From NCBI RefSeq assembly GCF_014648275.1, contig NZ_BMQU01000002.1:248001-312000 (forward strand): a stretch of 64,000 bases of DNA, written 5' to 3'. Below, piece by piece: positions 9,424-41,533 of the stretch; the first letter of the stretch is position 1, and each line of letters begins with the position of its first letter. The notes beneath the pieces were generated by a model. The model worked only from the letters and a program-made list of their open reading frames with translations, did not search any database and had not been told where the DNA came from. The stretch comes from Pseudomonas laurentiana. GTDB taxonomy: Bacteria > Pseudomonadota > Gammaproteobacteria > Pseudomonadales > Pseudomonadaceae. Made by a program: the position numbers and the translations under genes.

Positions 9424-10860
9424 TCACCATTGACGTTTGTCGGGCCGGGTCAACCCCAGCTTTTCAATCCGATAACGCAGCATGTCCCGACTCAACCCCA
9501 GCAGGCGTGCCGACTTGGTGACATTCCAGTCGGTGCGATCGAGCATCTTGCGGACCATGTCCCGCTCCACCTCCGGCAGGCTCATGTTATCCACGGCAGC
9601 GGCACCGTTTCCGCTGCCGTTACGCCACTCGGCGGGCGGTTCGGGGAGCTCCACCGGTTCATCCACCAGGCTCAGGCAGACGTTCAACTGATGCGGTGCA
9701 ATCACATCATGCTGCGCAAGTAGCACCGTCTGTTCGAGCATGTTGCGCAACTCGCGGACGTTGCCCGGCCAACTGTAGCAAAGCAGCAGCGACTCAGCCT
9801 CATCGCTGAAACGCAAATTCGGCTTGCCGTAGCGCTTGCCATGCTGGGCAAGAAAATGCCGGGCCAGCAAGAGGATATCTTCACCGCGTGCATACAGCCG
9901 TGGCACCTTGATCGAGATGATACGCAGACGGAAGAACAGATCGCGACGGAATTTTCCCTGTTGAACCATCTGTTCCAGGTTGCAGTTGGTCGCGCTGATG
10001 ATTCGCAGATCAACCTTACGCTCCTTCACCGCACCAATCCGGCGAATGGTACGGTCCTCCAGCAGCTTGAGCAGCTTGGCTTGCAACAACAGATCCATTT
10101 CGCCAATTTCGTCGAGGAACAATGTACCGCCATCGGCCGCTTCCACCAGACCAAGACGACGGTCCTTGGCATCGGTAAACGCGCCCTTTTCATGGCCGAA
10201 CAGTTCAGCTTCCAGCAGGTTGGCCGGGATCGACGCACAGTTGAACTCGACAAAAGGCCCCTTGCTCCGCGCGCCATCGAAATGCAGCGCACGGGCAACC
10301 AATTCCTTGCCGGTACCGGTTTCACCCTCTACCAGCACGGGAGGAAGGTCACCTCCGGTCATGCGCCGTTCGGCCTCCAGCAACTGCCCGAGGGTCTGTT
10401 TCAAGGCAAGCATGGCGGGCGACTCGCCGATCAGTGATTGAAACCCGGACTTCTGTGCCTCGCGCTCCTGGTAAAACGACAATGTCCGCTCCATGCGGTC
10501 AGTGGCCAGTGCCTTGTCCAGCATCAACTTCAATTCAGCCAGGGCCACCGGCTTGGTCAGGTAATGAAAGGCCCCCTCCTTCATTGCCGTGACCGCGTCC
10601 TCGACGTTGCCATAGCCGGTCATCATGATCACCTTGAGCTCCGGCGCCCGGGCGACCAGGATTCTGATCAGCTCATGACCATTCATGCCAGGCAGCGAAT
10701 TGTCGGTCAGCACCGCATCGGGCTGCAGATGCTCCAGTTGCTCCAGCGCATCCTCCGCGCTGTGACACACCGTGACCTCGAACTGCTTGCGCTCCAGATA
10801 GGTCTGGATGTTTCCGGCGAGTATTTCATCATCCTCCACTAGCAGAATGCTGTGCTCCAT
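9424..10860 (-). CDS. mnxR: MnxR-like sigma54-dependent response regulator
   Basis: A 478-aa NtrC-type regulator. The receiver domain (about 1-120) has the acidic pair Asp10/Asp11, phospho-acceptor Asp53 and the signalling Lys in LTKPVAL. The AAA+ domain (about 145-385) has Walker A GETGTGKE and Walker B GTLFLDEIGEMD. The sigma54-contact loop reads GAFTDA instead of the usual GAFTGA. The C-terminus carries a Fis-type helix-turn-helix (WNVTKSARLLGLSRDMLRYR). It overlaps the upstream kinase gene by 32 bp. The arrangement with two sensor kinases matches mnxS1-mnxS2-mnxR, which are required for Mn(II) oxidation in P. putida GB-1. The naming rests on this context and on the manganese-oxidase-like operon nearby. 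Confidence 0.85.
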   Translation of the reverse strand: MEHSILLVEDDEILAGNIQTYLERKQFEVTVCHSAEDALEQLEHLQPDAVLTDNSLPGMNGHELIRILVARAPELKVIMMTGYGNVEDAVTAMKEGAFHYLTKPVALAELKLMLDKALATDRMERTLSFYQEREAQKSGFQSLIGESPAMLALKQTLGQLLEAERRMTGGDLPPVLVEGETGTGKELVARALHFDGARSKGPFVEFNCASIPANLLEAELFGHEKGAFTDAKDRRLGLVEAADGGTLFLDEIGEMDLLLQAKLLKLLEDRTIRRIGAVKERKVDLRIISATNCNLEQMVQQGKFRRDLFFRLRIISIKVPRLYARGEDILLLARHFLAQHGKRYGKPNLRFSDEAESLLLCYSWPGNVRELRNMLEQTVLLAQHDVIAPHQLNVCLSLVDEPVELPEPPAEWRNGSGNGAAAVDNMSLPEVERDMVRKMLDRTDWNVTKSARLLGLSRDMLRYRIEKLGLTRPDKRQW

Positions 10861-12307
10861 GGTCCCCTCCGGCCAAGTTGAAAGTGAGGCAGACACGGGT
10901 TCCTTCCGCTTGACGGCTGGTCAGGCTGACCGCGCCGCCGAAACGCTCCATGATACGTTTGACCAACATCAGGCCGACCCCCAGGCCACCCTGCTTGGTG
11001 GTGAAAAACGGTTTGAACACCATGCGCTCCTGCTGTTCGCTCATGCCTTTACCGGTATCGCTCAGCATGAGCTGCAGTTGCCGGCTATCAGCCAGCAGTG
11101 TCACTTCGAGGCTCAAGCGTCCACCCTTGGGCATCGCTTCCAGCGCATTTGAAAACAGGCTGTTGAGTATCTGAGTCAATAACACTTTTTGGCTGATCAC
11201 CATCGCCGAAGGCGGCAAGCGTGACTCCACCCGTACCCCATAGCGTTCGGTCTGCTGGGAGAACGCAAGCTGCGTGTCCTTCAGCACCGCCAACAGATCA
11301 ACCGCTTCGGCATCGTCATCAACGGGGCGCAGTGAGGCCAACAGGTCGCGCACCCAGCGCGACATTCGATCAACCTGGCTGATGATGTCACCAATGTTCT
11401 TCTGTGCACCCTGGCTGGCCACCTCGTGAGCGAGCTCGGCACTGGAGCGGATGGTCGCTAGCGGGTTGCGCAAGCTATGGGCCACCGCTGAGGACATCTC
11501 GCCCAGCGCAACGAAGGTTTCACTGGCGATCAGTTGCGACTGCTGGGACTGCATCATTCCCGCCGCACGCCGAACGATCCAGAACAGGCCGAGATAAATC
11601 AGCAGCCCCCCCAGGAGGGTAGACGTCCAGATCAACACGTAGCCCCGCTGGATGCGCCGTACCAGGTCCTGGGGCTCCTTGTAGATCTCCACCATCGACA
11701 CGACGTGGGTGCCGGTAGCATCGAACATCGGAATGTAGTTCTCGATGAACAGGTAACGTGGTTCGCGTTCAAACCGCTGTTCGTCACGGCCCTCCTCGGC
11801 CTTGTGATAGCTGGCTGAGACCGAGACCTTCGATTCGAACGATTCGTCCAGATCCTCATCGCCGAGAATTCTCCGGCCAATCAGCTCCGGGTTAGTGGAC
11901 CAGACGACGGTCCGATCCTCGGCGTAGGCGTTCGCCAACAAGGTATCGGGCAAGTGCTTGATGTGGTCGAAAAACTCTGTCCTGGCGGCGACAGCCTCCT
12001 TGATGGGCAGCCCTTCGAAGGTACCATCGTTACGCGGGTCAAGCAGTTCGCCCATGCTCACGCCGGCAACGATCCGAGCGTGGCGCACCTCAGCCTGGGC
12101 CATGGCTTGAATGAACTGGGCGGTCAGCATGGCATCGCGCTCAACGCTGTCGGTGACGACAAAACGTGTCGATACGTAACCCAGGCCAACGGCAACCGAC
12201 GCAATGATCAACAGGCTCACCACCGAAAACCAGCGCAGCAAATTGAAGGGCCGCAGGCTGATTGCCTGCGCTTCTTTTTCAATGATTCGCGCATCGAGCA
12301 TGTGCAT
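10829..12307 (-). CDS. mnxS2: MnxS-like sensor histidine kinase (second of a tandem pair)
   Basis: A 492-aa membrane kinase. A transmembrane helix (about 25-47) is followed by a periplasmic sensor region of about 200 residues and a second helix (VLIWTSTLLGGLLIYLGLFW). The dimerisation/phospho-acceptor box is GEMSSAVAHSLRNPLATIRS, with His in AHSLRNP. The ATPase domain has N-box FSNALEAMPKGG, G1 LSDTGKGM and the KQGGLGVGLMLVKR lid. ATG 12307 is chosen because GGGGA lies 8 nt upstream. It is a close paralogue of the next gene upstream, with 36 bp between them. Which of the pair corresponds to MnxS1 or MnxS2 cannot be told; numbers follow gene order. Confidence 0.8.
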   Translation of the reverse strand: MHMLDARIIEKEAQAISLRPFNLLRWFSVVSLLIIASVAVGLGYVSTRFVVTDSVERDAMLTAQFIQAMAQAEVRHARIVAGVSMGELLDPRNDGTFEGLPIKEAVAARTEFFDHIKHLPDTLLANAYAEDRTVVWSTNPELIGRRILGDEDLDESFESKVSVSASYHKAEEGRDEQRFEREPRYLFIENYIPMFDATGTHVVSMVEIYKEPQDLVRRIQRGYVLIWTSTLLGGLLIYLGLFWIVRRAAGMMQSQQSQLIASETFVALGEMSSAVAHSLRNPLATIRSSAELAHEVASQGAQKNIGDIISQVDRMSRWVRDLLASLRPVDDDAEAVDLLAVLKDTQLAFSQQTERYGVRVESRLPPSAMVISQKVLLTQILNSLFSNALEAMPKGGRLSLEVTLLADSRQLQLMLSDTGKGMSEQQERMVFKPFFTTKQGGLGVGLMLVKRIMERFGGAVSLTSRQAEGTRVCLTFNLAGGDHGAQHSASGG

Positions 12308-12343
12308 TGGGTTGTTCCCCGTCAGCCGGTACTGCACAGAAGC

Positions 12344-13792
12344 CTAGAGTGCGGTGATGTCGAGCCCTGCTCTGGCCAGACGAAAGCTCAATTGCACGCA
12401 GGTGCCCTGGCCTTCGCGACTACTCAACCTTACCGCCCCGCCGAAACGCTCCATGACACGCTTGACCAGCATCAGACCAACACCCAAACCACCCTGTTTG
12501 GTCGTGAAAAACGGCCTGAAGGCCATTCGCTGCTGCTGGGTGCTCATCCCTTTGCCGGTATCGCATACCCGCAGAACCAGGCTCCGACGATTCTGTCGAA
12601 CCACTTCCACGCGCAATGTGCCACCTTCAGCCATTGCCTCCAGTGCATTGGCGATAAGGCTGTTGAACACCTGTCCCAGTAACACCGGTTGGCTCATCAC
12701 GGGTGTCGACGGCAATGGTGCTACATCGACCTGAACGCCAGCTTGAGCCATCTGTGCGGTGAACGCCTGCAAGCGCTCATGCAGGACCTGGGCCAGGTCG
12801 ACCGGCAGGGCCTCACCGTCCAGCGGCCGCAATGACTGAAGCAATTCGCGTACCCACAACGACATCCGATCAACCTGACTGATGATGTCGGCAATGTTCT
12901 GCTTCGCTGCGCCATCGTCGAACTCATCGGCCAGCTCGGCGCTGGAACGAATGTTCGCCAGCGGATTACGCAAACTGTGGGCCACTGCCGATGACATCTC
13001 GCCCAGGGCGACATAGGTCTGGTTGGCGACCAGCCGCCGCTGCTGCTGAGCCAGCGTACGCGCGGCCCTGCGCACGATGCCGTAGAGGCCAAAGTAGACA
13101 ACGGCAGCGCCTGCCACGGTGCCCAGCCAAAGCAGCAGCAACCCGCGCTCGATACGGTTGATCAGGTCCCGAGGCTCCTTGTAGATTTCGACCATCGCAG
13201 TCACCCGCTCCCCGTCCGTATCGAACAAGGGAATGTAGTTTTCGATGAACAATTGCTGGGGAGGCGTAATGAATTTTCGCTCGCTTCGTGCATCTTCAAC
13301 ATCGTGATAGCTGGCGGAAACACGCCGTTTGTGATCAAAGGCCCGGTCCAGGTCATCGTCGGCCTCGATCATCTTGCCAATCAACGTCGGGTTACTCGAC
13401 CAGATCACCATCCGGTCCGGCGCATAGATGTTGGCCAACAGCACATCGGGCAGGTGCGCGATGTGGTCCAGGAACTCTCCGCGTGCAGCGCGACGGGCTT
13501 CAGGGTCGACATCCGCGAACGCGCTGTCCAGACGCGGGTCGAGCAGTTCCCCCATGGTCCGGACATTGGGAATCGAAACGTGACGCACTTCGGCCAGAGC
13601 GATGGACTGGATGAACTGCGCAGTCAGCAGCGCATCACGCTCGACACTCTCGCTGATCACGAAGCGGCTGGAGATCACCCCGAGGCCTACGGCGACCGAC
13701 GCGATCACCGCCAGGCTTACAAAGGCGTACCAACGCAGCATATTGAACGGCTTTCTCAGCGCACCGGCGCTCAGGCTTGGTTGATAGTCCAT
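12344..13792 (-). CDS. mnxS1: MnxS-like sensor histidine kinase (first of a tandem pair)
   Basis: A 482-aa membrane kinase, first gene of the kinase-kinase-regulator operon. It has two membrane helices flanking a periplasmic domain and a cytoplasmic catalytic core. The phospho-acceptor box is SSAVAHSLRNPLANIRS. The ATPase motifs are SLIANALEAMAEGG, CDTGKGMS and TKQGGLGVGLMLVKR. It is clearly homologous to its neighbour over the whole length, including the periplasmic part (LLDPRLDSAF versus LLDPRNDGTF). Both share a conserved IENYIP segment near the end of the periplasmic domain. This indicates tandem duplication followed by divergence. ATG 13795 is an alternative start; both are preceded by GGAG. 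It faces the matrix operon across a 258-bp divergent region. Confidence 0.8.
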   Translation of the reverse strand: MDYQPSLSAGALRKPFNMLRWYAFVSLAVIASVAVGLGVISSRFVISESVERDALLTAQFIQSIALAEVRHVSIPNVRTMGELLDPRLDSAFADVDPEARRAARGEFLDHIAHLPDVLLANIYAPDRMVIWSSNPTLIGKMIEADDDLDRAFDHKRRVSASYHDVEDARSERKFITPPQQLFIENYIPLFDTDGERVTAMVEIYKEPRDLINRIERGLLLLWLGTVAGAAVVYFGLYGIVRRAARTLAQQQRRLVANQTYVALGEMSSAVAHSLRNPLANIRSSAELADEFDDGAAKQNIADIISQVDRMSLWVRELLQSLRPLDGEALPVDLAQVLHERLQAFTAQMAQAGVQVDVAPLPSTPVMSQPVLLGQVFNSLIANALEAMAEGGTLRVEVVRQNRRSLVLRVCDTGKGMSTQQQRMAFRPFFTTKQGGLGVGLMLVKRVMERFGGAVRLSSREGQGTCVQLSFRLARAGLDITAL

Positions 13793-13877
13793 CATGGTCT
13801 CCAACGTGGGCACTTCTAGGGTTATAGCCTATTGCCATGCCTCTGGCTTGATTCCCCACTGCTTTGCCCCAACCGGC

Positions 13878-13891
13878 CCCCAACCCTGGGG
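13878..13891. promoter_or_regulatory. CCCC-N6-GGGG palindrome upstream of the matrix operon (candidate MnxR site)
   Basis: The site reads CCCCAACCCTGGGG and is preceded by a half-like CCCCAACC at 13867-13874. It lies about 125 bp upstream of the start expected from the sigma54 promoter at 13983-13998. The same CCCC-N6-GGGG pattern occurs twice upstream of the secretion operon (29959-29972 and 30003-30016). Binding by MnxR is inference. Confidence 0.5.
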
Positions 13892-13982: not shown

Positions 13983-13998
13983 TGGTATGGAGTTTGCC
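13983..13998 (+). promoter_or_regulatory. Sigma54 (-24/-12) promoter of the curli/matrix operon
   Basis: The site TGGTATGGAGTTTGCC has invariant GG and GC separated by exactly 10 bp, against the consensus TGGCACG-N4-TTGCW. It lies 53 bp upstream of the ATG at 14051, giving a leader of about 40 nt with AGGAGG before the start. Confidence 0.7.
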
Positions 13999-14050: not shown

Positions 14051-15397
14051 ATGCACCGTCTACCGCCCCACCCGTTGGCGCTGCTGGCGCTGGCAACACT
14101 TTTACACGACTCGGCGCACGCCGCGCTGTTCGATGTTGACCCTGGCCCCTATCTGCAGACCAACGGTAAATTTGCCGCCTGGTATCAGGACAGTCATGGC
14201 CGGGTCCTTGATCTGTGCCTGTCCAAGGCAGTGAGTTCGCGGGTGGCCGGCGCACCCGGCGCGCCTTCGTACATGTGTACGCTGCTGCCAACGCCGGATG
14301 TGTTCAACGACACCCAACCGATCGTCTTTCCGACGAACTTCCCTGATGAAGCATTCTGGTTCACTGCCGATGCTGCCATTGTCGACGCCACACGTGGTGT
14401 TGACCTGAACTATGGCGCAGCCATCGAGGCGGCGTTCAGCAGCGGTCTGCCACTGGACAACGACCAGATCAGTTTCGCCCGGGTGCGTATACGCGTCGAC
14501 GTACCCACCGCCGGCACCTACGTCATCACTCACCCCTACGGGGTCGAAGTGTTTGACGTCACGACACCCGGCAGACGCGCAATCAACATGACCCGTGACA
14601 TCGGGATTGGCGCCCCGCAAACCTACACCGGCGCCCTCAAAGGCGAGGTCGGCCCGTTCCTGCGTAGCGTCAATGGCCCCTATACCGAAACCAACCCGGA
14701 AACCGGGGCCAGCGAACGCTTCATCGGTGACCCTAACCTTGTCGAGGCCGTTACCGGCAGCCCGCTCAACACCAACTACCTGCGTATCGAAGGGCCCAAT
14801 GGCCTGGACCTGCGTACCGAGTTGTTCGCGGTGTCCGGCAAGCTCTCCAGCGAAGTCAGGCCAACCCCCTTGATTCCATTGCGCAGCACCTACTCGCGCC
14901 ACACTGAAGACGGCAACCTGCGCGCCCAGCAGGATGTGTTCGTCCAGGCACCACCGCAACCAGCTACCGTCAGCCTGAGCAGTGAAGCCCCGGCCCGGAC
15001 CTTGACCGAAGCCAACACTACAGGTGCCTGGTATGCCCAGTCACCCCTGAACCCAAGCCTCCCGGCCATCCTGCAGGTCACCGCCGACAACCAGGTGGCG
15101 ATACCGGGCAGCACACCCACCACCCGTGCCATGCCACTCACCGATCTGGTCACGATACAGCGCGCCGAGTACAGCCTGGCCTCGGCGCAACTGACCCTGG
15201 TCGCCTCAAGCAGCGACGAAACCAGCCCCCCCACACTCACGGCCACCACCAGCAATGGCAGCACCATTGGCGACCTGAGCGGTGAAGGGGCACTCAAGAG
15301 TTTGACCACCGGTCTCTCGCCGATTCCGCCCGCCAGTGTCCAGGTAACCAGTAGCAACGGCGGCAGCGACAGCGAAGAAGTGGTTCTCGTGCCATGA
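14051..15397 (+). CDS. Secreted protein of unknown family, first gene of the curli-like operon
   Basis: A 448-aa protein with a signal peptide (about 1-24). Residues from about 26 to 285 form a domain shared with the next gene product. Landmarks are DVDPGPY, WYQDSHG, YMCTLLP with conserved cysteines, FWFTAD, THPYGVE, RDIGIGAP and RSVNGPYTE. I do not recognise this domain. The C-terminal third is Ser/Thr-rich and beta-strand-like. AGGAGG lies 7 nt before ATG 14051; the longer frame from 13832 overlaps the promoter and is not used. It is the first gene after the sigma54 promoter and is followed by a paralogue and two curlin-repeat proteins, so a role in the extracellular matrix is likely. Confidence 0.75.
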   Translation: MHRLPPHPLALLALATLLHDSAHAALFDVDPGPYLQTNGKFAAWYQDSHGRVLDLCLSKAVSSRVAGAPGAPSYMCTLLPTPDVFNDTQPIVFPTNFPDEAFWFTADAAIVDATRGVDLNYGAAIEAAFSSGLPLDNDQISFARVRIRVDVPTAGTYVITHPYGVEVFDVTTPGRRAINMTRDIGIGAPQTYTGALKGEVGPFLRSVNGPYTETNPETGASERFIGDPNLVEAVTGSPLNTNYLRIEGPNGLDLRTELFAVSGKLSSEVRPTPLIPLRSTYSRHTEDGNLRAQQDVFVQAPPQPATVSLSSEAPARTLTEANTTGAWYAQSPLNPSLPAILQVTADNQVAIPGSTPTTRAMPLTDLVTIQRAEYSLASAQLTLVASSSDETSPPTLTATTSNGSTIGDLSGEGALKSLTTGLSPIPPASVQVTSSNGGSDSEEVVLVP

Positions 15398-15432: not shown

Positions 15433-17664
15433 ATGAACAACTGGCCACGCCTGGCGCTGTGTGCAGCCGGGCTCTCACTTTCGCTGGCCGGCAATGCCTG
15501 GGCCGGCCTCGCAGCGGTAGACCCTGGGCCCTATACCTTGGCCACCGGGCGCTACCCCATTTGGTATCAGGATCACGCCAACCTGTCACTGGAACTCTGC
15601 CAGTCACGGGCTGCCAGCTCGCGGGTTGCCGCGACAATCCCCCCGGCCTACATGTGTACCCTGCTGCCGGAGCCCGGCATCTACGACGACGCCCTGCCGC
15701 TGGTATTCCCGGACAACTGGCCACCGGAAATGTTCTGGTTCCTGGCTGAAACCACCATCCCGGCCGTAGGTAACAGCGGGTTTTCACTGGACGCCTATGT
15801 CGCGGGCATTGAAGCAGCATTCGCCTCAGGCAATCCGCGCGATGGTGATCAGCAGAGTTTTGCCCGGATCCGGATCCGGGCGTCGGTGCCCGTCGCCGGG
15901 ACCTACACCATCACCCACCCCTACGGGGTCGAAACCGTCAATGTCACCAGCCCTGGCCGGCGAGTCATCAACATCACCCGCGACATCGGGATTGGCGCCC
16001 CCGGCGATTTCAGTGGTGCCTTGAACGGCAACATCGGGCCGTTCCTGCGCAGCGTCAATGGCCCCTATACCGAAATCAACCCGGACACGGGTGCCAGCGA
16101 AACCTACATCGGTGACCCGAACCTCACCGAAGCGGTTACCGGCAGCCCCAACAACACCAACTTTGTCCGCATCCAGGGCCCGAACGGCACGATTGAAACC
16201 AGCCTGTTCACCCTGTCCGGCAAGGTCCTCGACCCTCGTGCGCAAACACCGGTGGAACTGGAGCGTGCCAGCTACCGGCGCACCGCTGAAGGTACACGCC
16301 TTGAGGTTTTCGCCAAGGCACCGGCAGATGCGACCCTGTGCCTGCGTGAGACCGTGGCCCTGGTACCGGGAACGCCACCGTCGGCCTGCCAGTACAACCT
16401 GTTGGCCGACAACAACGGTTTGTTCTTCGTCGAGCGACTGATGCCCACGGCACCACCGTCTGTGGTCGTGCTGACCGCCAGCAGCACCAGCGGAGGGACC
16501 CGCCCCACGTCCCTGTCGGGCAAGTTGCACGACATCGTCAAAGTGCAAACCGCCCGCTACGACTGGAACAACCAACGGCTGCTGATCGAGGCCCGCTCCA
16601 GCGATGAAGTATTGGTCCCCGACCTGATCGCACAGGGCTATGGTCGCCTGTCGAAAAACGGTACGACGCAGAGCCTCACCGTCAACGACCTGAAGCAGCC
16701 ACCCGCCACTGTCACGGTCAAGTCCGCCGCTGGCGGCAGTGACACTGAACCAGTGCAGGTGGTCGGTAACGCCCCCATACAGGCGGCTAACCAGGCCCCG
16801 GTCACCCTGGCCGACAGCGGCAGCACCAGCTTTGGCGTACCGCTGACGCTGAACCTGTTGAGTAACGACAGCGACCCGGACGGTGATGTGCCGCTGACCA
16901 TCGTTGACCTTACGCAGCCGGCCAGCGGCCTTGGTAGCGTGGCCTTGAGTGGCAGCACGGCAGTGGTCTACACCCCGCCGCCCGTGGTCAACGTGCCGTT
17001 GATTGCAACCTTCAGCTACAAGGCCCAGGACAGCAAGGGGCTGAAATCGGACGCTACGACGGTGACCGTCAATGTGGCACCGAACCAGCCACCCACCGCC
17101 GTCAACGACAGCGCAGCCACACTGGGCGTGCCGGTGACCATCAACGTGCTGGCCAACGACACCGACCCAGAAGGCAACGTACCGTTGGCGGTGGCCAGTG
17201 TCACCCAGCCTCCCGCCGGGCGCGGCACCGTGACCACCAACGGCACGCAAGTCACCTACACACCACCGGCTACCGTCACCAGTGCCTTCAGCACCAGCTT
17301 CAGCTACATCGCCAGTGATGCGTTCGGGGCGCTGTCGGCCCCGGCAACGGTCAGCATGCAGGTGTCGCCAAAACCGGCCCAGGAAACCTTTACGGTGACC
17401 ACCGCGCAGGTCCAGGCGCGCTCCAACAACCGTTACAACTGGGACTTCAGTGGCACCTCGTCGGTCACCACCGGCAACACCGTGACCGTAAAGGTCACCA
17501 CCACCAATGGGCTGGTGACCCTGGGCAGTACTGCCGTACCGCTCACCGGGCGCTGGCGTCTGTCGATCAGTAACAGCACCACGGTAATTCCGTCGGCCAA
17601 CCCGACGGCAACCATCACCACCAGCCAAGGCACTGTACGCACCGTGCCAGTCAACGTGCAGTGA
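15433..17664 (+). CDS. Secreted paralogue with two Ig/cadherin-like repeats
   Basis: A 743-aa protein with a signal peptide (about 1-24). The N-terminal domain (about 26-280) is clearly paralogous to the preceding gene product, with the same landmarks (DPGPY, WYQDHAN, YMCTLLPEP, THPYGVE, RDIGIGAP, RSVNGPYTE). From about residue 455 come two cadherin/Big-type tandem repeats of about 100 residues, each starting NQAPVTLADS or NQPPTAVNDS and containing the S/A-NDxDPxGxVPL calcium-binding-like motif. A final domain of about 80 residues is Thr/Val-rich. Start ATG 15433 has AGGAGG close upstream. It is likely a large extracellular adhesive or scaffold protein, co-transcribed with the curlins. Confidence 0.75.
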   Translation: MNNWPRLALCAAGLSLSLAGNAWAGLAAVDPGPYTLATGRYPIWYQDHANLSLELCQSRAASSRVAATIPPAYMCTLLPEPGIYDDALPLVFPDNWPPEMFWFLAETTIPAVGNSGFSLDAYVAGIEAAFASGNPRDGDQQSFARIRIRASVPVAGTYTITHPYGVETVNVTSPGRRVINITRDIGIGAPGDFSGALNGNIGPFLRSVNGPYTEINPDTGASETYIGDPNLTEAVTGSPNNTNFVRIQGPNGTIETSLFTLSGKVLDPRAQTPVELERASYRRTAEGTRLEVFAKAPADATLCLRETVALVPGTPPSACQYNLLADNNGLFFVERLMPTAPPSVVVLTASSTSGGTRPTSLSGKLHDIVKVQTARYDWNNQRLLIEARSSDEVLVPDLIAQGYGRLSKNGTTQSLTVNDLKQPPATVTVKSAAGGSDTEPVQVVGNAPIQAANQAPVTLADSGSTSFGVPLTLNLLSNDSDPDGDVPLTIVDLTQPASGLGSVALSGSTAVVYTPPPVVNVPLIATFSYKAQDSKGLKSDATTVTVNVAPNQPPTAVNDSAATLGVPVTINVLANDTDPEGNVPLAVASVTQPPAGRGTVTTNGTQVTYTPPATVTSAFSTSFSYIASDAFGALSAPATVSMQVSPKPAQETFTVTTAQVQARSNNRYNWDFSGTSSVTTGNTVTVKVTTTNGLVTLGSTAVPLTGRWRLSISNSTTVIPSANPTATITTSQGTVRTVPVNVQ

Positions 17665-21159: not shown

Positions 21160-21188
21160 GATCGTCACTCCCATTGACCCGATACACC

Positions 21189-22846: not shown

Positions 22847-22851
22847 GTTGA

Positions 22852-23325: not shown

Positions 23326-23328
23326 GAT

Positions 23329-29799: not shown

Positions 29800-29868
29800 G
29801 GTCGACTCCTTGATACTTCACAGACCCGGTTTTCCGGTCTGGCTGAGTGCGGCCTTGTATAGGCTTAC

Positions 29869-29884
29869 GCACACTTCATGCCAG
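29869..29884 (-). promoter_or_regulatory. Sigma54 (-24/-12) promoter of the secretion-csgEFG operon
   Basis: On the minus strand the site reads TGGCATGAAGTGTGCG. The GG and GC lie exactly 10 bp apart. The -24 element is close to consensus; the -12 element is GTGC instead of TTGC. The expected start is near 29858, about 60 bp upstream of the response regulator start codon. Confidence 0.6.
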
Positions 29885-30663: not shown

Positions 30664-30762
30664 GATCCACCTCCGTCGAAACCACAGGGCCGCTTCACCC
30701 GCGATGCAAAACACCGCACAACCCCTGACAACCCCCGCGCTGCTCGCTGGCAACGCCGGCAC

Positions 30763-32277: not shown

Positions 32278-32280
32278 GAC

Positions 32281-32928: not shown

Positions 32929-33566
32929 GGCTGCTGCTCCTGAGCGATAGCGGTATGTCGGGCATGCACCCGACGAGCACCGAGGCGGTTGATCTCGGCA
33001 ATCAGCAAGGCCGGATCGGTGAAGCCGTAGTAACGGGTCCAATGGCCGCTGCGCCCATCACCGACCAGAATCAGCGGTGGATGTTGCCCCAGATCCGGGC
33101 TCAGGCTACCCAACCCCTTGAGGGTTTCATTCACCGCGTACGGTGTACCGGTCAGCCAACTCCAGCCCGGGCCTTTCTGGAAAGTCCGCGAGTAACTCAA
33201 CAAACGCTGCGGGTCGTCACGCTGCGGGTCGACACTGATCGACACCAACTGCACCTCCTCCCCCACTCGACCACCGAGTTGCTGCTGGACCTTGCCCATG
33301 ATCGACGACACCACCGGGCATACTGTCGTGCAACGGGTATAGATAAAGCCCATGACCACCAGTTTGTCGCCCACCAGATCCTTTTCCAGGCGCACGGGCA
33401 TGCCGTTCTGGTCCAGTAATTGAACATCGGCAAAACGCACCTGGGCCTTTTCCTGACGAGGGGCTGGCGCTTGATGCCCAGCGTGCCCGTCATGGGCCTG
33501 AACACCCCCCACGCTGGCGCCCAGCAAGCACAGCGTCAGCACGGCACAACGTTTGAACGCGTTCAT
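32925..33566 (-). CDS. SCO1/SenC-family copper chaperone (first of two)
   Basis: A 213-aa exported thioredoxin-fold protein. A signal peptide (about 1-24) is followed by HDGHAGHQ, a His-rich N-terminus that could bind copper. The CxxxCP motif is CTTVCP in IYTRCTTVCPVV, with the ligand His in LGQHPPLILV. It is clearly homologous to the next SCO protein but diverged. ATG 33566 has AGGAG 6-7 nt upstream. It follows the beta-propeller gene by 23 bp. Confidence 0.87.
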   Translation of the reverse strand: MNAFKRCAVLTLCLLGASVGGVQAHDGHAGHQAPAPRQEKAQVRFADVQLLDQNGMPVRLEKDLVGDKLVVMGFIYTRCTTVCPVVSSIMGKVQQQLGGRVGEEVQLVSISVDPQRDDPQRLLSYSRTFQKGPGWSWLTGTPYAVNETLKGLGSLSPDLGQHPPLILVGDGRSGHWTRYYGFTDPALLIAEINRLGARRVHARHTAIAQEQQP

Positions 33567-33589
33567 GGCGAACTCCTGTCTGCGGCACA

Positions 33590-35548
33590 TCATTGGGCGC
33601 TAGCGGGCAACACCCGCACGCTGGTGTAGTTTTTCTCGGCAAACGCCTTGCCCAGTGAGGGCGCTTGTACATGCAAGTACCAGGCACCCGCTTCGGCCAA
33701 CTCCAGCGGTGCCTCATAAACCCCCTCGCCGACTTCGCGCACCGGGCTGTCTTTGGCGCGTGAAGACGGCGCAAGGAAATAGCGCAGCGTCAGGTCCTTG
33801 ATCCCGTTACGCGGGGTTCCATCGCCCTCGACGATCCGGAAGCGCGCGACAAACGGATTGCCTTGCACCACCTGTGGCCGTTCCAGCAGGAACTCCACCC
33901 GCGGTATGTGGCGCTGAGGGCCGTTGGTCGAGGCCTGCACGTCGGTGCTGAAACAGTGGATGATCTGTGGCTGGTTAAGCAGAAAGGCCACATCGAACTT
34001 GCCCGCCGCCGGCAACTTCACCGTAGCGCTGTAGACCCCAGGGGCCACCTCGCGCAGGCTGCGGTCGATGACCAGAGCTGCGCGCGCGTTGTGCCCACGG
34101 TTCAGGTAACCGGACATCGGCGCGTTCATACCCTCGGCGTAGAAGTAGGTGGTGTTGTCCACCGGGTTTACAACGAACACCGAGTTCTCGTCGCGGGCCA
34201 CGCTGAGGCTCTGGGCCAGCGGAAGGTCACCGGCCTGCCGTGGCGCCGCCGGCCCGGCATCAAAGCCCTGAGTAATCGGTTGGCGACCCTCGCCGAGGGT
34301 GGCGAGGTTGATCATGGTGACCTTGGGTGAGGCCAGGCCACGGATGTAGGCATACGCCTTGGTGAACGTCACCTGATAAGGTTCTGCCGAGACCTCCAGC
34401 TCATGGATTGCCTTGTCGATACTGGCATCGATGACCACCGCCCGGTTTTCCAGCGTGTTGAGCACAACCCCGAAACGCCCATCGTCGCTGAAGCCCATTG
34501 GCCCGAGGCCTTGTCGGGCCTGAATACGGCTGCGCAGTTGATGGCTGACCCCATCGATCACGCTGATGCTGCCATCACGTCCATCCGCCACATAGACCGC
34601 CTGAGACAATGCCGAGTAGGCGACTGACAAGGGGTGCGGGCCGACCTTGAGGTTCTTCACCACACTCAAGTCGCTGCTGTCGATCACACTGACAGTGCCA
34701 CTGTCGCGGTTGCTGACAAAGGCGTAACGCGAGTCCTGGCTGAAGGCGATTTCGTGGTGCCCGGCCCCGGTGGGGATGAACTTCAAGGTCTTGTGGGTTT
34801 GCCCATCGATCACCGTCACCCCGCTGTGCCGGACATCCACTGCGTTGTTGCCGACCCAGAGCAAACGCTGATCCGGCTGCATGGCGATACGCACAGGCTG
34901 TTTACCGGCAGCGAGCAGCCCGGCCAGCTGAAAGGTCTCGGTATTGACCAGTGCAACTTGATCGGCCCCCGGCAAGGTCACAAACACACGCTTGTCGTCG
35001 GCACTGGCCACCCAGTCCATGGGCGGCTGAGGCAGTTCGATGCGTGCCAGTGTGCTGGTCACTCCACCGACCGATACCGACGGATCAATGACCGTCAGGC
35101 TGGCATCCTTGTTCAGCACCAACAGGAAGTAGCTGTTCAAATCCAGCAATGGCCGGGCACCAATACTGCTCTTGAGAAACAGGCCGACCCGCGCCTTGCA
35201 ACTCTTGTCGCGCTCACTGGCGACCTCACCGGCGCGCGCGGGGTCGATCCAGGCGCCAGGCGACATGCCCGACAGCGGTTGCCCGGTGTTCTGCTCGGTG
35301 ACCTTGAAGCGAACGCTGGCGAAGCCGCCCTCGCTCAGTGCCCCGGCAGCCCCCAACGGCCTGGCCTCGAACTCCACGGTGATACCATCACGGCTCAGGC
35401 GATGGGCACCGTCGAGATCCATGGCGGTACCCACCGCAGCGATCTCGGCCCGGGGATCACACCAGAGGTTTTCATAGCTGATCCCCAGGCCTATCAGCGT
35501 CAAGCCCGCCAGCATAGCCAGGTACAACGGTCTGCTTTTCTTGTTCAT
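33590..35548 (-). CDS. YVTN/cytochrome D1-like beta-propeller protein
   Basis: A 652-aa exported protein with an N-terminal membrane anchor (about 8-25). The middle (about 130-430) is a beta-propeller built of YVTN-like blades, such as VSNRDSGTVSVIDSSDLSVV and VYVADGRDGSISVIDGVSH. The N- and C-terminal parts look like beta-sandwich (YtkA/FixH-like) domains: VEFLLERPQVVQGNPFVARF and GEGVYEAPLELAEAGAWYLH. Related propellers are encoded beside large multicopper oxidases in several proteobacteria as far as I recall. It may shuttle electrons or act as a partner of the oxidase. It starts 30 bp after the oxidase stop. Confidence 0.78.
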   Translation of the reverse strand: MNKKSRPLYLAMLAGLTLIGLGISYENLWCDPRAEIAAVGTAMDLDGAHRLSRDGITVEFEARPLGAAGALSEGGFASVRFKVTEQNTGQPLSGMSPGAWIDPARAGEVASERDKSCKARVGLFLKSSIGARPLLDLNSYFLLVLNKDASLTVIDPSVSVGGVTSTLARIELPQPPMDWVASADDKRVFVTLPGADQVALVNTETFQLAGLLAAGKQPVRIAMQPDQRLLWVGNNAVDVRHSGVTVIDGQTHKTLKFIPTGAGHHEIAFSQDSRYAFVSNRDSGTVSVIDSSDLSVVKNLKVGPHPLSVAYSALSQAVYVADGRDGSISVIDGVSHQLRSRIQARQGLGPMGFSDDGRFGVVLNTLENRAVVIDASIDKAIHELEVSAEPYQVTFTKAYAYIRGLASPKVTMINLATLGEGRQPITQGFDAGPAAPRQAGDLPLAQSLSVARDENSVFVVNPVDNTTYFYAEGMNAPMSGYLNRGHNARAALVIDRSLREVAPGVYSATVKLPAAGKFDVAFLLNQPQIIHCFSTDVQASTNGPQRHIPRVEFLLERPQVVQGNPFVARFRIVEGDGTPRNGIKDLTLRYFLAPSSRAKDSPVREVGEGVYEAPLELAEAGAWYLHVQAPSLGKAFAEKNYTSVRVLPASAQ

Positions 35549-35578
35549 TACCTGTCACCCATCCCGACTACGGTCTGA

Positions 35579-38500
35579 TTACTGTGCTGGCGCAGTGGCT
35601 GGCGGCGCTTCGTTAGTGACCCGCAATATCCCCCACAACCCCGCAGCATTCCCGTAGGCGGCATAGTCACGGAACAGGTAGTCACCAGGTATTGCATTGG
35701 CCCCGCCGGCACTGGGGTGCATGAAGCTGAAGTGCGCCGCCGGCAGCACGCTCTCTTGAGCGCCGATGTACATCGACTGAGGGTTGTAACCGAAGCGCAC
35801 TGACCCGATGCCCGGCTGCGCCATGGGATAACCCAAGGCATCCGACTTCTCGGATTGCAAGGCATGCTGTGCCCAAACGTGGCCATCGAGTTGGAACGTC
35901 GTACCACGGCTCCCGCCAGACGGCATCAGGATATGGGTACGGAACGGTTGCCCTGGCTTGGCCCAGAGCACCGGCGTTTGTGGATCGCCGCCCACTAGCC
36001 CGTTGCTGTAAGCCATATGCACATCCGGCACATCGGCCCAACCATGGCCATCGGCGTGGCCAAACGGTGCATTAGGGGCCAGGCCGAAGCGCAGCCACAG
36101 CGGCTCGGCCTTGTAGTTGATGGCCATACCCGAGTTGTCCTGCGGGTCCCCCCCCGCGCCATTGCCCTCGGCAGCGATACCCTCTACAGGCCGCCCATTG
36201 GCCCAACGCAGGTTCAGGGCCTTCTGCCAGACCGTGACGAAATCACGGTAACTCGTCTGGCCCGGGGCCTGTACCGTCGCCGAAGCACGGCTATGTGCAT
36301 CTTCACTCCAGGTCGCCCCTGTCGGCAGGATACTCATGGCACCCCCCAAACCCTTCTGCGGTTGCTTGATCGGGTCGGCCGGGGTCAGGTTGAGGCCACC
36401 AAACTCGATGGGCGTACTGTTGATGTTGTCCACCTGACGGCCCAGTTGTGCCACCGGCTTGCCTTCACGCTCCAGATGCCCGGCGTAGTATTGATAGACT
36501 TTGCTCGGGTAGGCACCACTGCCCGTGCGAGGCGGCACGGTCTGTACCGGGTTCATGCCGACGTTGGCACCATCCGACTTGGTGATGTCGTAGGCCAGCA
36601 ACTGTGCATGCAAGCCAACATGGCTGGAGGGCCGCATCAGGTTGTTGTTGAACGTGGTCGAACCTTCACTGTCGTTGCGGTTGCGCTTGACCACCCCATG
36701 CATCACTGCAGTACTGGCCAGGTCTGGCATCACCAGTGGCAGGCGGTTTTCCAGGGTGACGTTGATGCAGTCACCCGCTGCGGCACGCAGCACCAACGGT
36801 TCGACCGGCACCCCAGGCTTGAGCTTGCCCGTCATGGGGTCAAGATCACTTTTGCGTACATACAGCACGGCCGTTGGATCATGCAGCGGTCCACTCTGAC
36901 CGCCAATCGTGAAGGTTTCGCCGTCCTCCGGGTCGGTCACCGTCACTTGCGGAACACTGATCGGCCGACTGTTGTAGACCAGCGTGCCGCCGTTGGCCTT
37001 GAGCGGACCACCGACATGCTGACCGAGACCGGCCGGGTCATTGAGACTCAGGTTCAGCGTGTTGCCGAGGATATCGTTGGCCAATGCCGCGACCACCTCA
37101 TAGCTACGCTGAGGTGTTGGCCGAGTACCAATTCCGTTGGGGTTAGGACTGTAGCGCGGGCAAATGCCATCAAAGGCGACGGTGTTACGCGCGGCAATCG
37201 GTTTAGGGTTGTTCGGCAGCGCAAACAGGTCTGGGCGGATAGCCGTGTAGTTACGCATTACACCCCACAAGCCGTTCCAGTAGCCTTCCAAGGACGCATC
37301 CAGGGAATACAGGTAGTCGCCGGTCGCCGCAGACGAACTGGAGACCATGGACACTGGCGCCATGAAGCCCAGTTGCTCGGAAATCCCGACCATTTGCGAA
37401 GACTTCCATCCTGAATTGGAGCTATTGCCAAAACCCGAACCACTCTGCAGCCACTTCACCCCGTGCAAGGTCACGTTATGTTCCTCTTCGTGACCACCGG
37501 CATGCATCCGCAAGCGCACGTTGTCACCCGAATAGGTGCGCAGCATCGGGGTGAACGGATCGCCAGGCTCACTGCCGCCCTTGTTGATGTGTGGAGGGAA
37601 CAAGGTTGTACCGCCGGTTGGGCCGACCGCAGAGGTGACCGCCGAAGGGGCCAGGTTCATGGCCGGAATCGCACGGTCGGTGCGACTTTGCATGCCGTAG
37701 GCGAGATCACCCGCCAGGCCATCGGCCTGCATGCCGCGCTTGCCGTCAGGGCCAATGCGGTTCGGGTCGAACACCCGCAGCGCCAGCGGCTCATTGCGAT
37801 AGTTGACGACAAACATGCCGGGGTCATCCACCGAAATAGCCTGCGGGCATGGCCGGCTCGGGCAGGTTGGCGTCAACCCGCCACGGGCTTCCGCCACCGC
37901 TTCGAGCAGGCTGGTGGCTTCCTTGCGCACCGGCGGGTTGATGGCATAGCGGAAGCTGTCAGCCGTTGCCGGGAACGCCTGGGCGTCAGGTATACCATTT
38001 GGCCCGGCACCGACGTAGACACCGGCTTCATAGGCATGCTGGAAGTCGCTGTACTCCAGGAAGAACTCACGGTAGCTGTCATTGCGCCCGTCACCGTCCA
38101 GGTCGCCGGTACTGACGACTGCTTGCCACGAAGTCGGACCGCCATCCTGACGCAGAGCGGTGTTGTAGAGCGCCTCACCGGTCTCGGCATGGAACCAGGT
38201 GGAACCGGCGGGTTCGGCCAACACGGTGGCGTACAGGCCCAGTTGCTGGTGAGTCGATGGGCCAAGGTGGTCGTGAGTGAAGATGGTGCCCAAACCACGG
38301 TCGACGTTGTTCACGTTGACCACTGGGTCGGCGAACCAGCGCTGCATCGCCGTGCGCGCGCCCACCCAGTCAGCCCGCCCGTAACGACCAAAGAACGGGT
38401 GCGCTTTGGCATGCGGGCACAACGCCGTCCCCTCTCGCGGATCATCCGGCTGGCATTCATTGAAGCCACGAATGGCCTCGATACGTTCAACCACGCTACC

Positions 38501-41377
38501 GGGCGACAGAACACCATCTTCATAGTTCCAGCCATTGGCCGAGCCATCAGCAGCGGTCAGGTCCCATTTCGGCAGGTGGATATGCTGACCGATCACGTCA
38601 GTTGGCGTGCGCACCTGGTAATCGTCCATCTCATAGAAGGACGGGATCAGGTTGGTCTGCTGGTACATCACACAATCAAAGGTGTTGATGCGCATCACCA
38701 ACGGCTCTGGTGGGCGCTGTTTGTTGATCACGCCCCAGGCATCTTCCCAAAGGGCGAGGATGCGCGCTTGCGGGAAGTGATAGCCCACCTTGTTGTACAC
38801 CGCATCGAACTGAATGTTGGCGGCCTTGTATACCCGAGGGTGATCAGCGGTGAACGGTGAAGAACCGTTAAAACTCATACCGTCCAGGCGTTCGCCACTG
38901 TTAAATTCCCCCGTACCGGCGCCCCGTGTCAGGCGTTTTCCGCGGTCGTCCATGCACGGTTCATAGAACGGCGCACCCGCCATGGGCAAGGCACCATTGG
39001 TGCGGAAGCTGCGCGCTACCAACTGGTTGCCCGGCAGTACCGCATAGCTGGGGTGATCCGGCTTGGCATGGTAGGCCATGGCCGCCTGCTCGACATCGGT
39101 CCCCTCTTCCGGCAGAAACACCGCCTTGGCACGGGTGACCTGCTTGGAGAAGTCCAGGGCCGTCGTCGTCGTCAGTGCTTGGCCGCCCGCGGCTACACCG
39201 TCCAGGGCATGCCGCGGCAAACCACCATCCCAACCACCGACCTGATCCGGGTCAAGGTTGCGCCACAGTGCATTGCCACTGTCGCGCAACTCGCGGGCCT
39301 TGGCGGGGTCAAGCATGTCCAGGGGCGGTGTCGGCGGGCGTTGCCCCACCGTGCTTTCCAGGCCTCCGATCCAGAAAGGATACCCAGGGTTTTTCAACGT
39401 GCCATCGGCGTTGCGGTTGGCTTCGCTGCGGTCAACCCATGCCAGCGATCCAATCGCACGCGGCCCCGCGTCCTGAGCATGACTGTCGTCACCCGCTTCA
39501 TCGCCTTCATCGTCGTCCTGTGCCGCCACCAGGCTTTCGGCCAGTTTCGGAACGACCGCAACCCTGCCCGGCATCGGCGCCATCGCCTTGCCAGGCAGTG
39601 GCACCACGGCGGGAATCGGGGTACCCGCGACAATTTCGCCATCGGGCAATGCGCGCGCGCCAGTCGCTGGCTTGCCGCTACGCAATGCCCAAGGCTGATC
39701 ATGGAAACCGGCCTGCCCCTGCTCGGAAACCGCCAGTCGCGTACCTTCCTCAAATACATCGTGTACCCGCCACATGCTCCACATGCCTTGGGCAAAGTGC
39801 GGGTAGAAGTGGCAATGGTAAATGGCATCGCCTGCAACGCGGTTGCGGTTGCCCGAGCCGCCATTGGCAATTTCATAGGTATAGCCGGCGCCGGGGCCGA
39901 TGCCCTGGGCATCGACATAGTCGGAGTTGTCATCATTGGGGTTAAACAGCCACTGATGGCCATGCAGGTGGAAAATGTGCTGCTCATGCCCGTTGTGGGT
40001 ATTGCGGAACTTGACGAAGTCACCGATGTAGCTGTGGTTGACGTTCGAGGGCTCGGCAGGATAAAGCGCCATGCTGGCCTTGACCCCGACATCCTTCGCA
40101 TCCGGGATCTCACCGGGGCGGATGTTCTCCAGGCCGACGTTCGCCGGCACATCCACCAGCATCGCCACGTCACCCACGGTGTGGGCGCTCAGGAAAAACT
40201 CTTCATAGGCACACGACAGGCAGTCATGCATGGGCCCGACACCCAGCCGGTTGGCAATAACCTCAGCTCCCATGCCGCCTGAGCCGTAGTTGATCATGAA
40301 CGAATCGCGTGTTGGCTCGAGCACATGGCCCATGACCGGGTCAGCCCAGTAACCTGGAAATGCCTGGGTGCCTGCCACCTCATCAGTGAACATCGAGGCA
40401 AAGTCACGGAACGGTTCAAGGCGATTGGGCAACGCCGGGTTGCGCTTGCCTATGCTCTCCAGCGGATAGGTCGAGGGTGGGAACGAGCCGTCGGGGTTAG
40501 ACCCCATGACAATCGCATCGGTTTCGCTGGAAATGATCTCGTTACCGTCGACCATGGCAATGATCGGCATACCGGCCTTGCCTTCACTGAGCCAAGGCTC
40601 GCGCTGCGGGTAGCGGGCCTCATAGTCGACAATCGGCTGCCCGGTCGGGGCACGACCGGTAGTGCTCAGGCGCATTTCCTCTTCAGTCAGGGTATTGCGG
40701 TAGGTGCGCCCATTTTTGGGTACAACCACGACCTGGCCAAACAGACCATTGGACACGTTGCCCGCAGCGCCCTCACCGCCAAAGGTCGCGCCCTTGCTGG
40801 TGGCGGCAAACGCCCCTTCGCGCTCCGCATAAAGGGTGTAGGTGCGAGAGGCTCCGGGCGCCACAAGGAAGTTGGCGTTGCGTCCGGTGTTGGCGGCGAT
40901 ATCGCCAATACTGTTGACCGGTTGCAGGCCATTGACCTGAAACCCGACATGACGGTCAGTGACCTGATCATCCACCATCGGGTCATGCTGATCGTCCACC
41001 CGGTCCTTGTTCGGGTTGGCTTGATACGCCAGCAGGTTTTGCAGGTTGACCGTCAGGCAATCGCCCGCGGCTACCCGCAGTACGATGGGCCGTGGACGCT
41101 TGTCCGGACGCAGTGAAACCTTGCCCGGGACTGCCGCACCGCCTCGTGCCAGCGACACCTGATGATCATCGACCACATCGCCACGCAGGGCGAACATCAT
41201 GCCATTGGCATTCTGCGCCCCAAGACGGTTGAACATCATGGGCTGGTCGAACGCGACGACATTGGCCACCCACGTCCGCTGACAACTGACGGCCGCTTGC
41301 GCGTGGCCGTGCATGCCCAGCATGGCAACGACAAGCAGTAACAGGGGGCTCAGGACATTGCCTTTGATCGTGATCAT
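35579..41377 (-). CDS. mcoA: Giant McoA/MofA-like multicopper oxidase (putative Mn(II) oxidase)
   Basis: A 1,932-aa exported protein with a signal peptide (about 1-28). The opening segment ANVVAFDQPMMFNRLGAQNA resembles MofA/McoA oxidases. Copper-ligand clusters are visible at HIFHLHGHQWLF (about 460), HCHFYPHFAQGMW (about 520), GQHIHLPKWDL (about 925), FTHDHLGPSTHQQLG (about 1030) and GGHEEEHNVTLHGVKW (about 1290). This implies many cupredoxin domains. P. putida GB-1 has two such giant oxidases, MnxG and McoA, both needing MnxR. The SCO and chaperone neighbours fit McoA/MofA better than MnxG, but I cannot exclude MnxG. ATG 41377 is chosen because the codon at 41410 would coincide with the predicted transcription start. 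First gene of a six-gene operon. Confidence 0.82.
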   Translation of the reverse strand: MITIKGNVLSPLLLLVVAMLGMHGHAQAAVSCQRTWVANVVAFDQPMMFNRLGAQNANGMMFALRGDVVDDHQVSLARGGAAVPGKVSLRPDKRPRPIVLRVAAGDCLTVNLQNLLAYQANPNKDRVDDQHDPMVDDQVTDRHVGFQVNGLQPVNSIGDIAANTGRNANFLVAPGASRTYTLYAEREGAFAATSKGATFGGEGAAGNVSNGLFGQVVVVPKNGRTYRNTLTEEEMRLSTTGRAPTGQPIVDYEARYPQREPWLSEGKAGMPIIAMVDGNEIISSETDAIVMGSNPDGSFPPSTYPLESIGKRNPALPNRLEPFRDFASMFTDEVAGTQAFPGYWADPVMGHVLEPTRDSFMINYGSGGMGAEVIANRLGVGPMHDCLSCAYEEFFLSAHTVGDVAMLVDVPANVGLENIRPGEIPDAKDVGVKASMALYPAEPSNVNHSYIGDFVKFRNTHNGHEQHIFHLHGHQWLFNPNDDNSDYVDAQGIGPGAGYTYEIANGGSGNRNRVAGDAIYHCHFYPHFAQGMWSMWRVHDVFEEGTRLAVSEQGQAGFHDQPWALRSGKPATGARALPDGEIVAGTPIPAVVPLPGKAMAPMPGRVAVVPKLAESLVAAQDDDEGDEAGDDSHAQDAGPRAIGSLAWVDRSEANRNADGTLKNPGYPFWIGGLESTVGQRPPTPPLDMLDPAKARELRDSGNALWRNLDPDQVGGWDGGLPRHALDGVAAGGQALTTTTALDFSKQVTRAKAVFLPEEGTDVEQAAMAYHAKPDHPSYAVLPGNQLVARSFRTNGALPMAGAPFYEPCMDDRGKRLTRGAGTGEFNSGERLDGMSFNGSSPFTADHPRVYKAANIQFDAVYNKVGYHFPQARILALWEDAWGVINKQRPPEPLVMRINTFDCVMYQQTNLIPSFYEMDDYQVRTPTDVIGQHIHLPKWDLTAADGSANGWNYEDGVLSPGSVVERIEAIRGFNECQPDDPREGTALCPHAKAHPFFGRYGRADWVGARTAMQRWFADPVVNVNNVDRGLGTIFTHDHLGPSTHQQLGLYATVLAEPAGSTWFHAETGEALYNTALRQDGGPTSWQAVVSTGDLDGDGRNDSYREFFLEYSDFQHAYEAGVYVGAGPNGIPDAQAFPATADSFRYAINPPVRKEATSLLEAVAEARGGLTPTCPSRPCPQAISVDDPGMFVVNYRNEPLALRVFDPNRIGPDGKRGMQADGLAGDLAYGMQSRTDRAIPAMNLAPSAVTSAVGPTGGTTLFPPHINKGGSEPGDPFTPMLRTYSGDNVRLRMHAGGHEEEHNVTLHGVKWLQSGSGFGNSSNSGWKSSQMVGISEQLGFMAPVSMVSSSSAATGDYLYSLDASLEGYWNGLWGVMRNYTAIRPDLFALPNNPKPIAARNTVAFDGICPRYSPNPNGIGTRPTPQRSYEVVAALANDILGNTLNLSLNDPAGLGQHVGGPLKANGGTLVYNSRPISVPQVTVTDPEDGETFTIGGQSGPLHDPTAVLYVRKSDLDPMTGKLKPGVPVEPLVLRAAAGDCINVTLENRLPLVMPDLASTAVMHGVVKRNRNDSEGSTTFNNNLMRPSSHVGLHAQLLAYDITKSDGANVGMNPVQTVPPRTGSGAYPSKVYQYYAGHLEREGKPVAQLGRQVDNINSTPIEFGGLNLTPADPIKQPQKGLGGAMSILPTGATWSEDAHSRASATVQAPGQTSYRDFVTVWQKALNLRWANGRPVEGIAAEGNGAGGDPQDNSGMAINYKAEPLWLRFGLAPNAPFGHADGHGWADVPDVHMAYSNGLVGGDPQTPVLWAKPGQPFRTHILMPSGGSRGTTFQLDGHVWAQHALQSEKSDALGYPMAQPGIGSVRFGYNPQSMYIGAQESVLPAAHFSFMHPSAGGANAIPGDYLFRDYAAYGNAAGLWGILRVTNEAPPATAPAQ

Positions 41378-41419: not shown

Positions 41420-41435
41420 AGCAAGCCCCATGCCA
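41420..41435 (-). promoter_or_regulatory. Sigma54 (-24/-12) promoter of the multicopper oxidase operon
   Basis: On the minus strand the site reads TGGCATGGGGCTTGCT. It matches the consensus TGGCACG-N4-TTGCW at every position but one. The predicted start near 41409 gives a leader of about 32 nt containing GAGG before ATG 41377. This is the best sigma54 promoter in the window. Confidence 0.85.
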
Positions 41436-41453: not shown

Positions 41454-41466
41454 ATTCAATGCATTA
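41454..41466 (+). promoter_or_regulatory. IHF-like site upstream of mcoA
   Basis: ATTCAATGCATTA matches WATCAANNNNTTR at all positions but one. It is centred about 51 bp upstream of the predicted start, between the sigma54 promoter and the palindrome at 41510-41533. Confidence 0.4.
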
Positions 41467-41509
41467 CCTTGGTCCAATGCAAAAAAGTGGGTGTGAAGGC
41501 CCTACATTC

Positions 41510-41533
41510 CCCACTTTTCCCGGGGAAGGTGGG
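41510..41533. promoter_or_regulatory. GC-rich 24-bp imperfect palindrome upstream of mcoA (candidate MnxR site)
   Basis: The site runs from CCCAC through a central CCCGGG to GTGGG, with 20 of 24 positions symmetric. It is centred about 112 bp upstream of the predicted start, close to the distance seen for the proximal site of the secretion operon. It contains CCCC and GGGG blocks like the other sites but with N9 rather than N6 between them. A further AAAGTGGG copy of the arm lies at 41485-41492. Confidence 0.4.

Follow-up and report, generated by a model that had tools for sequence, protein, structure and literature searches.

Why do genes for manganese oxidation, for amyloid fibres and for a secretion machine lie together in one Pseudomonas genome, and do they answer to a single regulator? 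The question is raised by a stretch of 64,000 nucleotides from Pseudomonas laurentiana (positions 248001-312000 of its contig; hereafter the window), which belongs to a genome of 5.2 Mb placed with Pseudomonas. From high to low coordinates, the window carries the manganese oxidase operon mnxG, an operon for a pseudopilus machine that ends in csgEFG, a curli structural operon, and the regulatory genes mnxS1, mnxS2 and mnxR (Table 1). A preliminary description of this DNA had proposed that MnxR and sigma54 unite manganese oxidation, curli and secretion in one regulon. Comparison with related genomes supports this proposal: a common inverted repeat precedes the sigma54 sites and recurs at the oxidase operons mnxG and mcoA, the combined pattern is nearly confined to genomes with MnxR, and the genes co-occur even where they are unlinked. 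It is thus quite probable, judging from these sequence patterns, that MnxR controls the oxidases, the curli operon and the pseudopilus-csgEFG operon as one module, through the repeat TTCCCC-N6-GGGGAA and sigma54.

The regulator and its targets can be recognised from their domains. Among the open reading frames of the window are a response regulator with sigma54-activation and Fis-type helix-turn-helix (HTH) domains, two histidine kinases, curlin-repeat proteins, CsgE, CsgF, CsgG, a secretin, GspE and pseudopilins; curlin-repeat subunits and all three Csg export proteins, the parts that define a curli system, are therefore present. The identification of an MnxR-like regulator with two kinases was borne out. 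Its product has the three domains expected of an MnxR orthologue (receiver, sigma54 activation, Fis-type HTH), adjoins the mnxS1 and mnxS2 kinases and resembles a published MnxR carrier. It was assigned to MnxR because it shares 82% identity with the MnxR protein of P. psychrophila locus L196, whose gene order, mnxS1-mcoA-SCO-mnxS2-mnxR, is the one described for P. psychrophila-like manganese oxidisers (PMC11409713, excerpts). Likewise, the mnxG operon corresponds in content to that of P. putida GB-1, with mnxG, a beta-propeller gene, SCO, an ABC/periplasmic protein and SurA, as named in an excerpt of PMC8218464. An 80% match to MnxR also occurs among the Pseudomonas records under the title Pantoea sp. 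Ap-967 (L190), a title that may be wrong.

Three GG-N10-GC sigma54 sites had been described in the window. All of them are present and conserved in relatives, with the pseudopilus site displaced by one base (29868-29883, not 29869-29884). A consensus matrix ranked the mnxG element 1st in the window, the pseudopilus element 7th and the curli element 32nd, so that within one sequence only the mnxG element stands out. Loose consensus matches numbered 383 against 377 expected, which is not above chance; with this result and the curli rank of 32, scoring of a single window was rejected as proof. The pseudopilus and curli elements are instead supported because they are kept across relatives. Distinct upstream regions were collected for all three operons: 78 for the curli operon (from 114 matched loci, after removal of 30 with fewer than 380 bases upstream and merging of identical regions), 38 for the pseudopilus operon (from 47 matches, less nine of under 45% identity that lie in MnxR loci) and 51 for mnxG (from 65 matched loci, after regions that were identical or short had been merged or dropped). 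TGGYRYR-N6-GC occurs near the start codon in 51/51 mnxG, 38/38 pseudopilus and 65/78 curli regions, and GG-N10-GC is conserved at a constant spacing from the gene in all three operons, as expected of sigma54 promoters. The fit to the consensus is better in many relatives than in the window. Exact matches for integration host factor (IHF) are patchy (9/51 mnxG, 16/38 pseudopilus and 0/78 curli regions), and a general IHF claim was dropped for that reason; an IHF-like conserved island is visible in the pseudopilus promoter alignment.

The inverted repeat TTCCCC-N6-GGGGAA is common to the three promoters and precedes the sigma54 site by 65-165 bp. Its core, CCCC-N6-GGGG, is exact in 68/78 curli, 38/38 pseudopilus and 32/51 mnxG regions, where dinucleotide shuffling predicts 2.2, 0.55 and 1.1. 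Two copies are found in 37 of the 38 pseudopilus promoters, and one copy in those curli promoters that have the repeat. The GC-rich palindromes that had been noted at activator distance are exact in the window at the curli operon (one) and the pseudopilus operon (two, minus strand), and approximate at mnxG, to which we return below. Since CCCC-N6-GGGG occurs five times in the whole window, the bare repeat is not rare, and it is its position rather than its mere presence that matters. In the pseudopilus and curli promoter alignments, the conserved islands are the repeats and the sigma54 element.

The promoter of mcoA, which played no part in finding the repeat, has CCCC-N6-GGGT and TGG-N10-GC in 23 of 30 regions, and in locus L380 the repeat is exact. 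Of the seven remaining regions, one has the repeat alone; L154 is cut, and inspection of two suggests that their start was wrongly extrapolated. The organism's own mcoA, 146 kb away from the window, is preceded by ACCC-N6-GGGG and TGGCCCG-N4-TTGCT. A second repeat with a sigma54 site stands between mnxG and the beta-propeller gene at L207:10890-10992, L372:10067-10169 and L375:7996-8099, which suggests an internal promoter there in some lineages.

Repeat and sigma54 element were then combined in the search pattern CCCC-N6-GGGG-N62-92-TGGYAYR-N5-TGC, with the reversed pattern as control. Among 199 Pseudomonas genomes, the pattern matches 61/61 genomes with MnxR and 3/138 without it (Fisher p ~4e-48), and the control gives eight matches in total. 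By coordinates, 115 of the 122 matches (one site listed twice) sit at operons of the proposed regulon: 53 at the pseudopilus operon, 42 at the curli operon, 15 at mnxG, three ahead of the beta-propeller gene in the mnxG operon and two at mcoA. Three of the other seven are in genomes without MnxR, one precedes a gene for an mnxS1-like kinase (L379), and the last three probably mark the same operons where contigs are broken. In a sample of 148 genomes of the family, the pattern matches 18/27 genomes with MnxR and 4/121 others, with one match to the reversed control. A combined score, whose weights were chosen after the motif had been seen, was also applied to about 390 kb of the organism's own contig; it places mcoA 1st, mnxG 2nd, pseudopilus 4th and curli 10th among 462 candidates. 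In L378 and L379, an exact repeat and a sigma54 site precede an additional mnxS1-like histidine kinase gene (41% identity), possibly encoding a third kinase of the regulon.

The preliminary description had pointed to other pseudomonad genomes as the place to look for co-occurrence of these operons, and there it is found. MnxR, the secretin (at least 69% identity) and Cur2, a large protein of the curli operon, are present in the identical 61 of 199 Pseudomonas genomes, also when hundreds of kilobases separate their loci. The secretin matched in 71 genomes, ten of which, at 33-35% identity, were set aside; these ten have no MnxR match at the threshold. Within the 61 genomes, mcoA is found in 56, with some copies cut or broken, and CsgG at 77% identity or more in 58. 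Outside them, two genomes give a partial or distant mcoA match, and seven have CsgG at 48-50% identity and no pattern match. Genomes G163 and G021 have MnxR, secretin, Cur2 and mcoA, and matches to mnxG and CsgG were not found in them. In the family sample, 27 of 148 genomes, from 6/19 genera, encode MnxR, and the secretin is present in 24 of these 27 and in no other genome. The link between the two recurs in five other genera. Many genomes of the genus labelled g12 have two MnxR paralogues, one of them adjoining cur1/cur2 with the repeat (L373, L374, L375), and three (G209, G256, G332) have MnxR without the secretin. An IS110-type transposase adjoins cur2 in L373.

A canonical type II secretion system combines GspE, GspF, secretin and pseudopilins; no GspF match was found among the scanned open reading frames of the pseudopilus operon, and the operon is for that reason classed only as a machine resembling type II secretion systems and type IV pili. 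In P. capeferrum WCS358 (L181), a gspG-gspF pair adjoins mnxS1 and has the exact repeat, as do 30/30 loci with this arrangement; nearly all of them have a conserved sigma54-like element with a weak -24 part (GTGCACG-N4-TTGCA). Another 29 loci, nearly all fetched around mnxG, match gspG at 66% or more, and the exact repeat occurs in 0/29 of them. The organism's own contig yielded no such pair. A fair guess is that two operons of one regulon divide the secretion machine between them. Xcm, a Gsp-related pathway that secretes a manganese-oxidising factor in P. putida GB-1 (de Vrind et al. 2003, in excerpt), is likewise a type II secretion-related system tied to manganese oxidation, and WCS358 is reported to have an Xcm cluster. 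The pseudopilus operon of the window, for its part, has no GspF match among its reading frames. The identification of this operon with Xcm was not accepted, as the pair adjoining mnxS1 in WCS358 is a different one.

A further link runs between the curli operon and one of the oxidases. The last ~190 residues of Cur2 are 52% identical over 198 columns to the C-terminus of the organism's own long-form McoA (an McoA copy of this region lies at L311:880-1500). Among the matches listed, 24/24 that cover only the C-terminal part of Cur2 stand directly behind an mcoA match, by comparison of coordinates by eye. The McoA of L196, encoded between the kinases, is shorter (942 residues against 1133 in the long form). 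The common region suggests a docking or export part shared by Cur2 and McoA. For Cur1, the AlphaFold model has a mean confidence (pLDDT) of 55.

Several observations weigh against a single MnxR regulon. The repeat at mnxG in the window is imperfect (CCCC-N9-GGGG), and the exact N6 form is found in only 32 of 51 relatives. Thirteen of the 78 curli regions have no canonical -12 part; nine of these have GG-N10-GT in the element's place (L163, L164, L173, L177, L180, L184, L189, L194, L195) and four match elsewhere only, with the -24 part and the repeat retained in the five that were inspected. Nine of the 27 MnxR genomes in the family sample escape the strict pattern, which matches four of the 121 others. 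In four of the nine the repeats are exact and the sigma54 element is looser, in three the sigma54 element is strict and the repeat degenerate, and in the remaining two both elements occur but are spaced farther apart. The gene set also has gaps: G021 has a partial secretin, stop codons interrupt Cur2 in G049, and mnxG is found in 59/61 MnxR genomes and not in G021 and G163. Furthermore, the genome counts are uncorrected for shared ancestry and are not counts of independent events. Finally, MnxR is the sole sigma54 activator among the reading frames scanned in the window, as had been claimed, but the genome as a whole has ~22 strong matches to the sigma54-activation domain, that is, ~21 activators besides MnxR.

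Any of these other activators might bind the shared operator in MnxR's place, and the curli and pseudopilus operons would then not answer to MnxR at all. An activator common to all Pseudomonas, however, should leave the same arrangement of repeat and sigma54 element in genomes without MnxR, of which only 3/138 match, and the repeat also stands at mnxG and mcoA, genes tied to MnxR in print; this explanation is accordingly unlikely. Shared descent could produce similar promoters as well, if the operons were inherited together as a cluster in some clades and resembled one another by descent or chance, with no co-regulation. The loci are indeed within ~40 kb of each other in many genomes. Nevertheless, the three promoters are dissimilar outside the repeats and the sigma54 element; in five of the 28 genomes with computed distances, over 200 kb separates mnxR from two or all three of the loci, with sites and co-occurrence retained; and in five genera (by genus label) that hold members both with and without MnxR, the secretin tracks MnxR. 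Descent or chance as the whole explanation thus seems very improbable.

Control by MnxR leaves room for different functions of the fibres. In the proposed mechanism, MnxR, presumably phosphorylated via MnxS1/MnxS2, would bind TTCCCC-N6-GGGGAA ~65-165 bp upstream of the sigma54 promoters and activate the manganese oxidase operons mnxG and mcoA together with cur1, cur2 and the two curlin-repeat genes that make up the curli structural operon, and the operon that encodes csgEFG and the machine resembling type II secretion systems and type IV pili. Oxidase, curli and pseudopilus genes would then be expressed together, the machine might export the oxidase or matrix proteins, and manganese oxidation might take place on or in the curli matrix, a suggestion of the preliminary description that the region common to McoA and Cur2 supports indirectly at most. 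MnxR might instead control curli and pseudopilus as a parallel biofilm response, in which the fibres have no direct role in manganese oxidation. Curli are known adhesins, and 2/61 genomes are without mnxG and 5/61 without mcoA; against this, all 61 genomes with the curli operon have mnxG or mcoA, and long-form McoA has its C-terminal region in common with Cur2. Such a parallel response is a serious possibility, if a little short of an even chance. More tentatively, the parts may form one mineralising organelle: curli with Cur1 and Cur2, a two-operon machine that also brings the curli export parts, manganese oxidases delivered to this organelle, long-form McoA docked via its Cur2-like region, and manganese oxide laid down on the amyloid scaffold.

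Parts of this scheme are already in print. Disruption of rpoN abolishes manganese oxidation (PMC11409713, excerpts), and the mnxG and mcoA promoters are predicted to be dependent on IHF and sigma54 (PMC11930936, in part). The MnxS1/MnxS2/MnxR pathway of GB-1, as far as the available sections describe it, has the same regulator, two kinases, mnxG and mcoA operons and a sigma54 control already proposed; it differs in that the oxidase genes are the sole targets stated there, whereas the window adds sites at the curli and pseudopilus-csgEFG operons and a proposed operator. With known curli (csg) systems the window shares curlin-repeat subunits, CsgE, CsgF and CsgG. It differs from them by sigma54 promoters with a predicted MnxR site, by csgEFG ending the pseudopilus operon, and by the large proteins Cur1 and Cur2, which head the subunit operon. 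What is new is the operator, the wider regulon and the region common to McoA and Cur2, as distinct from the sigma54 dependence of manganese oxidation and of the oxidase promoters. The link of curli and secretion to MnxR had been thought novel, and it still looks so: no report joining MnxR or manganese oxidation to curli was found in the open-access literature searched, a search that most subscription papers fall outside. An open-access text that names curli, manganese oxidation and multicopper oxidase treats them separately in the portion available.

Table 1. Features of the window, in window coordinates.
Feature	Position	Strand	Remarks
mnxR	9424..10860	-	receiver, sigma54-activation domain, Fis-type HTH; GAFTDA replaces usual GAFTGA
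mnxS2-like histidine kinase	10829..12337	-	
mnxS1-like histidine kinase	12344..13813	-	61% identity to mnxS2-like kinase
inverted repeat CCCCAACCCTGGGG	13878..13891	+	predicted MnxR site, curli operon
sigma54 element TGGTATGGAGTTTGCC	13983..13998	+	curli operon promoter
cur1	14051..15397	+	secreted protein, no Pfam match; 47% identity to N-terminal part of Cur2
cur2	15433..17664	+	Ig-like/cadherin-like domains; C-terminal region also in long-form McoA
curlin-repeat protein, CsgB-like	17683..18156	+	
long curlin-repeat protein	18174..19553	+	
csgE, csgF, csgG	20317..21985	-	last genes of pseudopilus operon
pseudopilins, secretin, PilN/PilO-like proteins, GspE ATPase	21982..29215	-	
receiver-domain protein	29263..29799	-	opens pseudopilus operon
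sigma54 element TGGCATGAAGTGTGCG	29868..29883	-	pseudopilus-csgEFG promoter
two inverted repeats	29959-29972 and 30003-30016	-	predicted MnxR sites of pseudopilus operon
mnxG operon	30022..41377	-	mnxG 35579-41377; beta-propeller, two SCO proteins, periplasmic binding protein, SurA-like
sigma54 element TGGCATGGGGCTTGCT	41420..41435	-	mnxG promoter
imperfect repeat CCCC-N9-GGGG	41509..41525	-	upstream of mnxG

Two other loci of the window lie on either side of these operons. Close to mnxR, a CHASE-GGDEF-EAL protein is encoded at 4132-6387 (minus strand); cyclic di-GMP has been tied to manganese oxidation in P. resinovorans (PMC9765421, excerpt). Beyond the mnxG operon, a HAMP histidine kinase and an AcrB-type RND efflux pump occupy 45483-51965.

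The reason for bacterial manganese oxidation is an open question. If MnxR does act through this operator, which joins manganese oxidases with amyloid and secretion genes, the function would become directly testable, and the repeat together with the sigma54 element would serve as a search motif for the regulon. Most csg operons of Pseudomonas have no csgD nearby, and another regulator has been suspected (PMC3521004, in part); for such operons, MnxR would then be a candidate regulator.

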